5,652 nt of DNA from Desulfobulbaceae bacterium (GTDB lineage: Bacteria > Desulfobacterota > Desulfobulbia > Desulfobulbales > Desulfobulbaceae), in NCBI GenBank assembly GCA_026986885.1, contig JALSNT010000016.1, forward strand, positions 1 through 5,652, read 5' to 3'. The position numbers were made by a program, and so were the translations under genes. The notes below the pieces were generated by a model. It was not told the origin of the DNA and did not search any database. It was given only the letters and a program-made list of their open reading frames with translations. Shown here in pieces: positions 2,796 to 5,652 of the stretch. The first letter of the stretch is position 1; every line of letters starts with the position of its first letter.

Positions 2796-3029
2796 TTATT
2801 CCGACTCCACCTCTTCATTAAATGGCCGGGACTGCAAGCCGGCATCCGTTTTAAGTATCAGGTCGATCCTGTTCTTTGCCTCTTCAAGTTTATGGTTACA
2901 AAATTCTACCAGGGCAATACCCTCATCGAATTTTTTTAAACTTTTCTCAAGGTTGAGTTCACCTGCTTCAAGTTCATCGGTAATGGACTCCAGGCGGGAC
3001 AGCGCGGATTCAAAGGTTTTTTTCGCCAT
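2796..3029 (-). CDS. xseB: Exodeoxyribonuclease VII small subunit
   Basis: XseB is the small subunit of exonuclease VII, which several copies form with XseA to degrade single-stranded DNA into acid-soluble oligonucleotides. From the ATG at 3029 the protein is 77 residues (E. coli has 80). It carries the family pattern: [40 protein letters not shown], then [13 protein letters not shown], two amphipathic helices ending in an acidic tail. The frame stays open upstream to a TTG at 3050, but the family N-terminus (MAKK-x-FE) supports the ATG. That ATG lies inside the right core site of the attC candidate. The only Shine-Dalgarno-like sequence, GGTGAG at 3045-3040, is part of that site, with a rather long 10-base spacing. 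The usual upstream partner xseA is not adjacent; restriction-gene remnants are there instead. Confidence 0.92.
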
Positions 3030-3103
3030 AACGATCAAGCTCACCGGCAATTTTGTTTTGGAGCGCAGCGGAACAAATGTCCGCGTGTAGCGCCTTGTTA
3101 TGT
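3026..3103 (-). other. attC: Candidate integron attC recombination site (78 bp)
   Basis: On the minus strand the element begins with R'' ACATAAC (3103-3097) and ends with R' GTTATGG (3032-3026); CATAAC and GTTATG pair perfectly. The inner boxes L'' GCTACACGCGG (3091-3081) and L' CCGGTGAGC (3047-3039) pair as GCT/AGC, CAC/GTG and CGG/CCG with two unpaired bases, A3088 and G3084, on one side. These behave like the extrahelical bases that orient attC folding. Further in, TTTGTT (3077-3072) pairs with AACAAA (3057-3052). Sequence words such as TAACAAGGCGCT and CCGGTGAGCTTGATCGTTATG are familiar from attC sites of chromosomal integron cassettes. R'' overlaps the TAA stop of the upstream restriction-gene remnant, as is common in cassettes. 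No integrase or second attC is visible. Confidence 0.8.
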
Positions 3104-4066
3104 TTTGTTTTTATATCTAACGAACCCATCGAGAATATCTTGAAAAGACTTTAGCTTGTATTTCTCGAAACTCTCCTGATCGACATATACAAAGTCGTAA
3201 TTTATTTCCTGCTGCAACGCGTTAATATCCTCACACCACTGGCGCAACCGTTCCATTTTAAGTGGCACATCCAGGTCTTCCTGCCCCTTTGTTTCCACAA
3301 TCACGACACAATCGGCAAAAAGTTTCGTAAAAAAAAATCAGGATAATAATGAGAGATATCGCCATCAGCGTTCACATAATCCAGCTTGAAATGCACGGCC
3401 AGATAATTCTTGGCGTAAGATACCACATCGCTGCATTCATCCAGGAATGCGGCAAATTGTAATGCAAAATGGCTATCACCGATGATGCGATTAAACACGC
3501 ACTTTTTCGGCATTAAATAACCCTGGTCTTTTACGACAAAAGGTCGCGTATTCCGCAGCTTGATTGTATCCCTTATTTCCGCATCACCTTTATCCCGCAC
3601 AGTCAATTAATTGATTGCTTTTTTGACGGTTTCAAGCACGGTTTTGGTTGCTGCCAACTCAGACAGGTTCCTCAATGTGTTGGGAGACTCCAGGGCAACG
3701 GTCCGGCCAAACAGCGCTTTTTGAATAAAGCCCTTTACCTTGCCGTATAGTACATCATAACCACTGACAGGCGCAATTCTTTCATTATGGTCTGCGCGAA
3801 ACAGCCAATGCAACCATGGTTCCGTCGGCCCTTGGCAACAGGTGCGGTTCCCTGAACCACCAGTTGAGCAGGCTTTTGCTTGTATCGCCGGCACCCGCAT
3901 AACCACTGTCGCGAAACTCCCTCACCTTTTTGCGCAAGCCGGCCACCAGCGGCGGCATCAGCTTGTCCATGCTGGTGTAGCGCAAAACTTCGGCCACCGG
4001 AAACCGGCGAATCTCCGGGTTCAGGATGACGTGGAGTGAATCAGGAAAGTCGGGATGCAGGGCCAT
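3098..4066 (-). pseudogene. Decayed type III-like restriction subunit (helicase/PD-(D/E)XK nuclease, BPTD_3080-like)
   Basis: Three blocks of one family are present. Block A (4066 to about 3815) is the N-terminus, with SMDKLMPPLVAGLRKKVREF and SKSLLNWWFREPHLLPRADGTM. The frame then changes and the whole ATPase/helicase part is missing. Block B (about 3825-3328) resumes at SGYDVLYGKVKGFIQ, continues NTLRNLSELAATKT to KKAIN, has an in-frame TAA (3609-3607), then LTVRDKGDAEIRDTIKLRNTRPF to YYPDF. Block C (about 3325-3098) follows a frameshift in a T9 tract and has VVIVETKGQEDLDVPLKMERLRQWCEDI. PDF plus ETK form a PD-(D/E)XK nuclease signature, now split across frames. Intact relatives are far longer, with helicase motifs, and cut DNA as part of a restriction system. 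The start at 4066 overlaps the KilA-N stop (TAATG) and has GGAGG 7 bases upstream. It is almost certainly inactive. The family name is from memory. Confidence 0.85.
3329..3337. repeat. A9/T9 homopolymer at a frameshift
   Basis: Nine A on the plus strand (nine T in the coding direction) lie exactly where the reading frame of the restriction subunit changes, between YYPDFF and TKLFADCVVIVETKG. Seven or ten T would restore one frame across both halves of the nuclease motif. This may be slippage during decay, a sequencing error, or a formerly variable tract. Confidence 0.7.
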
Positions 4067-4893
4067 TATTTTTCCTCCAGCCGCTTGATTCCCGGATCTT
4101 CCGTCAGCACGCGCATCTGTTGTATGGCGAGCCGGTTCAACCGAATCAATCGGTCGGACTGGGCAATACCCTCATGGATAAGGTGCGCGTTCAGACTCTC
4201 CATGTTCGCCAGGCAAACCAGTTGTGCCCCATTGGCAAAGTCACGGATATTGCCTTTTTCGTCTGGATGGGCCTCGCGCCACTGTTTTGCCGTCATACCG
4301 AACAGCGCCATATTCAGCACATCCGCCTCCGAGGCATAGACGGAATTGACTTGCCGCGAGGTTAGCTCGGCGGGGATCAGGTTTTCCTTGATGGCGTCGG
4401 TATGGATGCGGTAGTTGATGCGCGCCAGATTGCGACGGATGTCCCAGCCCAGTTGTTGCTGCTCGGTTTCCTTGAGGCGCTGGAACTCCTTGATCAAATA
4501 GAGCTTGAACTCCACCGACACCCAGGCGGCGAACTCGAAGGCGATGTCCTTGTGGGCGAAAGTGCCGCCATAGCGCCCGGCTTTGGAGACGATGCCCACG
4601 GCACCGGTGCGCTCGATCCACTGTTTCGGTGTCAGGGTGAAGCTGTTCAGGCCGGCCTGCCTTCTAAACCCGTCGAATTCGACGGGTTTAAAATTCGGGT
4701 TATGGATCTGCTCCCAGATACCCAGGAACTCAACCGTATTGCGGTTGCGAATCCAGTTCCGCACCAGGTCATCCGTTCTATCCGTGTCCCGGTGGCGGGC
4801 AATATCGGTGAGTGAGATAAAATCCTCCTCCGCGATGCGCGACACCTTGATCAAGGTATCCAGCACCTCGATTTCGCGGTTCTTGCGGCTCAT
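4066..4893 (-). CDS. KilA-N domain protein, intact, within a decayed restriction operon
   Basis: The product is 275 residues and appears complete. Residues about 9-140 form a KilA-N DNA-binding domain: DFISLTDIARHRD, DLVRNWIRNRNTVEFLGIWEQIHNPNF, then the signature GRYGGTFAHKDIAFEFAAWVSVEFKLYLIKEFQRLKE. KilA-N domains occur in phage and large DNA virus proteins and bind DNA. The C-terminal part (about 185-265: EADVLNMALFGMTAKQWRE, RDFANGAQLVCLANMESLNAHLI) is a helical region found in bacterial members and may be regulatory or for dimerisation. The ATG at 4893 overlaps the upstream methyltransferase stop (ATGA) and has GGAGG at 4905-4901, 7 bases away. The stop overlaps the next start (TAATG). 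This tight packing implies translational coupling in an original three-gene operon. Its exact role there is unknown. It is the only member still open from end to end. Confidence 0.88.
   Translation of the reverse strand: MSRKNREIEVLDTLIKVSRIAEEDFISLTDIARHRDTDRTDDLVRNWIRNRNTVEFLGIWEQIHNPNFKPVEFDGFRRQAGLNSFTLTPKQWIERTGAVGIVSKAGRYGGTFAHKDIAFEFAAWVSVEFKLYLIKEFQRLKETEQQQLGWDIRRNLARINYRIHTDAIKENLIPAELTSRQVNSVYASEADVLNMALFGMTAKQWREAHPDEKGNIRDFANGAQLVCLANMESLNAHLIHEGIAQSDRLIRLNRLAIQQMRVLTEDPGIKRLEEK
4665..4690. repeat. Perfect 26-bp palindrome inside the KilA-N gene
   Basis: The arms TAAACCCGTCGAA (4665-4677) and TTCGACGGGTTTA (4678-4690) are exact reverse complements with no spacer. The next bases outward do not pair. 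It encodes FKPVEFDGF in the KilA-N domain. In single-stranded form it would give an 11-bp stem with an AATT loop. Confidence 0.9.
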
Positions 4894-5226
4894 ACCGAAA
4901 CCTCCACAATCGTCATGGTGTCATTGCCGAAGATATCCACCACCTTGACCGCGATCTTGCGCCTGCCCGGTGAACATTTATGGGCCACGCTCTTAGGCTC
5001 CAGCGAGCGGTCTTTTTTGGTGCGGAAGCTCTGCCACTCGTTCTCAAAGATATAATCGCCGGTCCACTGCTCCTCTATTTTGCCGGTTATGTACCCGGAT
5101 GATCTCCTGCTTGCTCTCAAAGTCGAAATCCACGCTCCAGTAGTCGATCCAGTCAGTCCAGTGCCGGGTAAGGGTTTCACGGGTGATGATACCGTTCTTG
5201 TCACGGCTGACCTTCACGATCCGGCC
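4890..5226 (-). pseudogene. C-terminal remnant of a site-specific DNA methyltransferase (Mod-like)
   Basis: Only about 110 residues of similarity remain. The upstream part reads KGRIVKVSRDKNGIITRETLTRHWTDWIDYWSVDFDFESKQEIIRV (about 5229-5095). The frame then breaks, needing a net one-base insertion or two-base deletion, and continues EEQWTGDYIFENEWQSFRTKKDRSLE through RKIAVKVVDIFGNDTMTIVEVSV to TGA at 4892-4890. I recognise this tail as the C-terminus of type III-like adenine methyltransferases that accompany KilA-N and BPTD_3080-type restriction genes. The catalytic motifs (DPPY, AdoMet-binding) are absent, so assignment rests on the tail and on context. The 5' end of the gene is lost; family-like sequence fades near 5226, where an AT-rich promoter region begins. 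It ends with a 4-base ATGA overlap into the KilA-N gene. It has no likely function. Confidence 0.7.
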
Positions 5227-5227
5227 C

Positions 5228-5254
5228 TTTACAAAAAGTTTATACAGAGATAAT
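5228..5254 (+). promoter_or_regulatory. Possible sigma70 promoter for the recombinase gene
   Basis: TTTACA (5228-5233) and GATAAT (5249-5254) each match five of six consensus bases, but the spacer is only 15 bases. The surrounding 75-base gap is AT-rich. On the other strand TATAAA (5244-5239) with TTTAAT 18 bases upstream could serve leftward transcription of the KilA-N remnant operon. Neither can be confirmed by eye. Confidence 0.3.
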
Positions 5255-5301
5255 CTATCTATATTAAACCGTAATTATATCGCTTTCAAGGGTTCTTTTT
5301 T

Positions 5302-5652
5302 ATGCCTGATATTGCTGCATTTCGTGACTGGCTTTGTGTGGAGCGCGGATATTCACCAAGAACGGTCACGTCATATCTCTCCGATGTCAATGAGTTGTAC
5401 ACATTTTGCCGTCGCAACGGGGAACTGGACCCATGGAAGCTGGATTCCCTGCGCAGATTTGTCGGCTCTCTGCATGGAAAAAATTCCGCAACATCCGTTG
5501 CCCGTAAGCTGTCGGCGCTTCGAACTTTTTTCAGATATCTCCAGCGAGTGGGTAAAATTAATAAAAATCCCATGCCGGCTATTGCCAACCCTCGCCTGGT
5601 TCGCTATATTCCATCGTTTCTCACTGTGGATGAAGTCTTCTGTCTTCTCGAT
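5302..5652 (+). CDS. XerC/XerD-type tyrosine recombinase, N-terminal part
   Basis: The frame starts at ATG 5302, with AAGGG at 5288-5292 nine bases upstream, and is open for 117 codons to the window end. Residues 1-88 are the SAM-like core-binding domain: FRDWLCVERGYSPRTVTSYLSDVNELYTFC, then SVARKLSALRTFFRYLQRVGKINKNP. The linker NPRLVRYIPSFLTVDEVFCLLD leads into the catalytic domain, whose R-K-H-R-H-Y residues are outside the window. The spacing and the words YSPRT, LSALRTFFRYL and NP...R.IP.FLT.DEV are typical of XerC, which with XerD resolves chromosome dimers at dif. It lacks the EQAYVHWIKRFI.FHGKRHP-like start of integron integrases, so it is not an evident IntI. It is divergent from the decayed restriction operon. 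Whether it is the housekeeping XerC or a mobile-element paralogue cannot be told from half the protein. Confidence 0.85.
   Translation, partial: MPDIAAFRDWLCVERGYSPRTVTSYLSDVNELYTFCRRNGELDPWKLDSLRRFVGSLHGKNSATSVARKLSALRTFFRYLQRVGKINKNPMPAIANPRLVRYIPSFLTVDEVFCLLD

Follow-up and report, generated by a model that had tools for sequence, protein, structure and literature searches.

The DNA analysed here (a stretch of 5652 bp, hereafter the window) contains a decayed type III restriction operon which ends in what is almost certainly an attC site, judging by the match of the segment 3026–3103 (minus strand) to two covariance models. This segment runs directly into the start of the core gene xseB. 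We find it somewhat more probable than not that an outsized integron cassette (mod-kilA-res), whose 3' end the attC would mark, was placed by an integrase at an attG-type site before xseB.

The attC architecture that the original prediction had claimed for positions 3026–3103 was recovered with exactly these boundaries, and the covariance search returned a strong match rather than an absence. With model R1, cmsearch gave a full-length match on the minus strand (61.8 bits, E 1.1e-18), and the remaining three matches in the window up to E 10 scored 5.7–6.4 bits. Model R2 placed the boundaries identically (40.3 bits, E 1.7e-8 in 117.6 kb). The outer boxes R'' (ACATAAC, 3103–3097, minus) and R' (GTTATGG, 3032–3026, minus) form 6 of 7 pairs, and the stop codon of res, TAA at 3100–3098, is contained within R'', as had been predicted. 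From known attC sites, the crossover (G^TT) is predicted to lie between 3032 and 3031. The bottom strand alone folds as an attC hairpin; this part of the prediction held, except that three single bases are unpaired on one side where two had been described. The fold energy of the site is unremarkable (−11.8 kcal/mol, z −0.95, a value equalled or bettered by 33 of 200 shuffles; z −0.04 when the flanks are included) and, not being discriminating, was dropped as proof of an attC. A search of the window against Rfam gave nothing at the gathering threshold. Neither an integron integrase nor a second attC was found within the 5652 bases, which do include the start of xerC, in agreement with what had been stated beforehand.

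Seventeen attC sites at other loci went into model R1, the window being excluded. Thirteen of them, spread over 9 genomes, were found by scanning 297 Desulfobacterota genomes with a pattern (the reversed-pattern control gave 0), two came from plasmids, where a blastn search with the window had picked them up (84% over 44 nt, E 1e-3), and two from the vicinity of integrase genes. The structure imposed on the model covaries, as 13 of its 23 pairs are changed on both sides, and the covariation score is 0.271, compared with 0.095 in shuffles; sliding the structure gives no more than 0.069. R1 is not blind to the window site, because the search pattern behind 13 of the 17 sites was modelled on that very site, which matches the pattern. 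Two checks are less exposed to this bias. One is R2, built from 10 sites in a single array beside an integrase in genome G049; these sites were found with R1, and one of the ten fits the pattern. The other is a structure-only finder, written before any model, which ranked 3026–3103 at the top in the window (24.0–24.3 vs 16.3 and 14.8).

Further attC sites were noticed in the course of the analysis. Four sites in one genome (G173; L335 8545–8619, L336 7836–7909, L337 7756–7827 and L338 7847–7918) have differing bodies and share, after the crossover G of R', near-identical sequence that starts with the palindrome GTTCRTGGGACGC...GCGTCCCACGAAC. Palindromes like it occur at R' in L332 (G838) and L349 (G233), and the repeat abuts the attC exactly at the crossover. 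Plasmids carry attC-like sites near conjugation genes, one in Vibrio pectenicida (L082, 5998–6069), downstream of TIR and macro domain genes, and one in Shewanella (L081, 3998–4069).

The window comes from a Desulfobulbales-like bacterium, with a Dxs that is 91–92% identical to that of four genomes from the order of G002, and at most 71% identical to that of genomes in the named collection. On one side of the operon lie xseB, encoding the small subunit of exonuclease VII (2796–3029, minus; Pfam PF02609, E 4.5e-18), and downstream of it dxs (814–2718, minus; Pfam DXP_synthase_N, E 2.5e-120). On the other side is the 5' part of xerC (5302–5652, plus; NCBIfam TIGR02224, E 3.6e-22). Beside dxs, on the plus strand, are the end of a gene for a PDZ-domain protein (1–213) and a gene for a DUF3465 protein (269–721; PF11948, E 1.4e-46). 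The spacing between xseB and dxs is 77 bases (2719–2795) and is also close in L288–L294; it is about 0.9 kb in L295–L297 and several other loci, with a 314-aa frame at this place in L002.

In relatives, xerC and xseB face each other across a short gap, measuring about 103–1036 bp between matches in the loci of 10 relatives and 122–411 bp in 15 of 20 loci around closer relatives (the other 5 had no xerC match in reach). In the window this gap is 2272 bp. No attC was detected by R1 between xerC and xseB in the relatives' loci scanned (33 loci and a set of 20), and the original prediction withstood this comparison, since the sequence found upstream of xseB in the window is absent from the relatives examined. 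Outside the gap, R1 gave three matches of 14.9–16.4 bits among the 33 loci and one of 21 bits beyond xerC in L299 among the 20.

Both joints of the additional DNA can be located. Host sequence upstream of xerC (5230–5301) aligns with four close relatives (L288–L291) up to TTTGTAAAG (~5235) and is followed by mod at codon ~588, the joint lying at ~5229–5235. On the xseB side, the sequence becomes attC two bases ahead of the start codon (ATG, 3029–3027), so that the R' box GTTATGG is half site and half xseB start. When this arrangement is compared with an attG insertion, the gap is short in 25 relatives and the right joint fits G^TT; on the left, a deletion has carried the joint into mod. The four closest relatives all lack a GTT ahead of the xseB start, and for this reason the attG target is one that we infer.

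Between the joints are, in operon order, a mod C-terminus, a KilA-N gene and res, all on the minus strand. The mod remnant (4890–5229) starts at about aa 588 and is frameshifted (tblastn 80% and 71%). The KilA-N gene (4066–4893) is open and encodes 275 aa; it is a PADLOC candidate (PDC-S22, E 2.5e-134) and matches Pfam KilA-N (E 3.7e-20). What is left of res amounts to aa 1–85 and about 660–895, with a frameshift and a stop. Its N-terminus (aa 1–85) lies at 3812–4066 (tblastn, 73%). A second piece (3325–3809, aa ~660–821; tblastn 78% over aa 674–821), ahead of which aa 86–659 are missing, has an in-frame stop at 3609–3607. The C-terminal end (3098–3334, aa ~818–895; tblastn with Aminobacter Res, 68%) is in a frame of its own. 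This end is complete by comparison with the GFREYKEKI-stop of L380 and L118, and its stop is the TAA of R''. Homologues of Mod and Res thus occur together in one operon, as is characteristic of type III restriction-modification systems, and the remnants in the window are predicted not to be functional.

Integron recombination uses only the bottom strand of attC, as described in PMC8352920, and the crossover is placed at the G of R' in PMC12901181. As the crossover is at R' and involves the bottom strand only, R'' stays with its original gene, and a res gene adjoining R'' would therefore be either the cassette's own gene or the product of a non-integron accident exactly at the stop codon. Among 26 reference sites, chosen as the best of 45 matches, 6 have a stop in the same register of R''. 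Because the res stop is built into R'', the operon is probably the cassette itself. The original prediction was correct in joining the attC to the remnant of a restriction operon, and is probably to be revised where it saw this remnant as standing in place of a cassette. As in a cassette, the 3' end of the gene abuts R'' of its attC. A cassette's 5' border, at the crossover of a preceding attI or attC, is absent, with mod truncated, and this loss of the 5' border of the insertion is a point against the cassette reading. A type III operon, at about 6 kb, is also large for a cassette.

If the operon is a cassette, a unit consisting of mod, kilA, res and attC would have been released from an array in circular form. 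The bottom strand of its attC, once folded, would then have recombined with G^TTATGG, a site two bases ahead of the xseB start codon, by means of an integrase acting from elsewhere in the cell. A later deletion would have brought mod codon ~588 up against the flank on the xerC side, and res would have lost about 575 codons as well as its frame. A source of integrase in trans is plausible; an integron integrase scoring above the curated cut-off is encoded in 108 of 297 genomes of the phylum and in 6 of 8 near relatives tested, and attC matches at E ≤ 0.001 occur in 5 of 8 near relatives.

The main rival, to which we attach a modest but serious probability, holds that an ordinary cassette or a small array had earlier left the attC before xseB, and that the restriction operon arrived otherwise and was fused to it at the res stop by a deletion or by illegitimate recombination. 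Remnants as full of deletions as these are in keeping with such a fusion, but the event must have struck the stop codon exactly, and no examined relative has an attC before xseB. The Res family also bears on the question. It was searched for in 297 Desulfobacterota genomes, 369 genomes of other classes and 242 order-level genomes (the sets of 297 and 242 overlap), and in plasmids and viral contigs. Most members of the family are without an attC, which favours a fusion, and R1 had no match at the res ends of 11 loci, nor of 20 loci, nor among 53 except for G233. In G233, an intact Res of 895 aa has its stop within R'' of a degenerate attC (R1 40.1 bits, E 1.7e-9; R2 just 16.3 bits, E 0.16). The recurrence of an attC at the same codon, in G233 and weakly elsewhere, argues against a fusion by accident.

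Fainter signs are present at other res ends. G050 (L380) has TAACCAGGCGCTATAC...GTATAGC at the res stop, where R1 without filters gave 12.4 bits (E 0.45), and G852 (L384) gave 10.3 bits (E 2.2) at the corresponding position under the same setting. Only TAACAAGGCG is seen at the res end of G690, and only a palindrome at that of G030. When R1 was run without filters on ten loci, L383 and L385 were without a match at the res stop, and R2 had no match up to E 5 in G050, G690, G852 and G030 (L380, L383, L384, L385). In G175, an attC-like R1 match (L176 12550–12612; 17.2 bits, E 0.081; R2 12.8 bits, E 1.8) is found about 60 bases upstream of a mod start; its R'' holds the stop of the 796-aa ORF that precedes it. 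This match resembles the cassette that would be expected as the 5' neighbour of the operon.

In 5 of 66 res ends, the letters following the stop codon agree with the left end of attC at no fewer than 8 of 11 places. The window is counted among the 66 (and among the 5); L380 and L382 were added to the set by hand after reading, and L381 (same batch, without the motif) was left out. The corresponding figure for control ends, taken from other ORFs of at least 200 codons, is 0 of 1241. Without the window, Fisher's test gives p values of 6e-6 with L212 and 1e-4 without it, which are optimistic because the res ends are related to each other. The res end of L212 passes the 8 of 11 count and was rejected as an attC; a G+C-rich palindrome follows, R1 finds no match, and it is likely a false positive, probably a terminator. 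A relaxed palindrome score at gene ends was dropped as evidence, as 37 of 700 control ends reach 28; among the res ends only L128 stood out (37.2, with 1 of 700 controls as high).

When 57 Res C-termini are placed in a tree (219 columns, bootstrap not settled), the six rows that show signs of an attC stand apart from each other, and the starred branches force at least 3 changes of attC state, so that a single origin of all attC-bearing Res is not supported by this tree. Such scattering across the tree is in keeping with a fusion. The same can be said of L118 and L382, which are free of attC and end in ...KI with TAAC, so that an R''-like end exists without an attC. This KI-stop/TAAC tail also hints at one old cassette that often lost its attC. 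For the history of the family, several independent joins of an attC and one old cassette with frequent loss both fit.

A different and unlikely account takes the attC to be the last site of an integron that once occupied the xerC-xseB locus and then decayed, with its integrase lost or just beyond the window. In its favour, the contig of G002 that carries xseB and dxs also has, next to xerC, a homologue of integron integrases (L002 699–1637 / L103; TIGR02249, 461.7 bits; open frame of 505 aa). This homologue is located on the far side of xerC from xseB, however, and no attC is found there or in the gaps of other relatives. A chance hairpin, or an assembly chimera of an integron contig and an xseB contig, is very improbable, since the fold energy, which taken alone is unremarkable, is set against two covariance models that agree on the boundaries, and a simple chimera is hard to reconcile with flanks that are both host DNA in ancestral order.

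The interpretation of the operon as a cassette can be extended, tentatively and with less than even confidence, to other genomes. Complete type III operons (mod, KilA-N gene, res) might move as integron cassettes of 6–10 kb in Desulfobacterota, with the res stop built into the attC, landing outside integrons beside core genes (xseB here; in G050 a LivH-type permease gene, with SIR2-HerA preceding), and with the attC joined or lost several times. In G050 (L390 12157–17325), genes for SIR2 and HerA, a mod remnant, a KilA-N gene and a res remnant are situated between two genes for branched-chain amino acid permeases. G050 was rejected as a bounded cassette, with its 5' border unplaced; in G175 almost identical bases precede the LivH-type gene, and the operon's end is missing there, so that R' in G050 may be host sequence.

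If multi-gene defence operons can be cassettes, the usual picture of the size of cassette cargo is too small, and integrons could deliver entire restriction systems to core loci that lie far from any array. A Res family in which some members have an attC at the stop codon and others lack it there would make the acquisition of an attC by a gene testable by comparison, and if such giant cassettes are real, the family could show the birth of a new cassette.

Type II restriction systems, which are small, occur in integron cassettes and share with the window the arrangement of a restriction enzyme gene followed by an attC; the window differs in that its remnant is of a type III operon, which when complete is about 6 kb long and in G050 adjoins SIR2-HerA genes. 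Type III restriction-modification operons with a KilA-N gene have the same mod-kilA-res order in G083 and G496, whereas the operon in the window is decayed and ends in an attC. A partial literature search, covering papers other than PMC12024412, in which the phrase occurs, did not turn up a type III restriction operon described as an integron cassette. The name SALIN is used in PMC12690207 for a single attC without an integrase, and single-attC CALINs can be true positives according to the description of IntegronFinder 2 (PMC9024848). The window is similar to these in having one attC and no integrase within 5652 bases, and unlike them in its cargo, a decayed multi-gene restriction operon. Insertion of cassettes at attG sites has been published (Loot et al. 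2024, as cited in PMC12444791 and PMC12901181). The likeness here would be that of a cassette outside an integron, next to a host gene and at a site that is neither attC nor attI; the difference is that the case in the window would be natural and old, its target deduced rather than observed. A lone attC and insertion at attG are both known already, and it is the type III operon as cargo that seems unusual.
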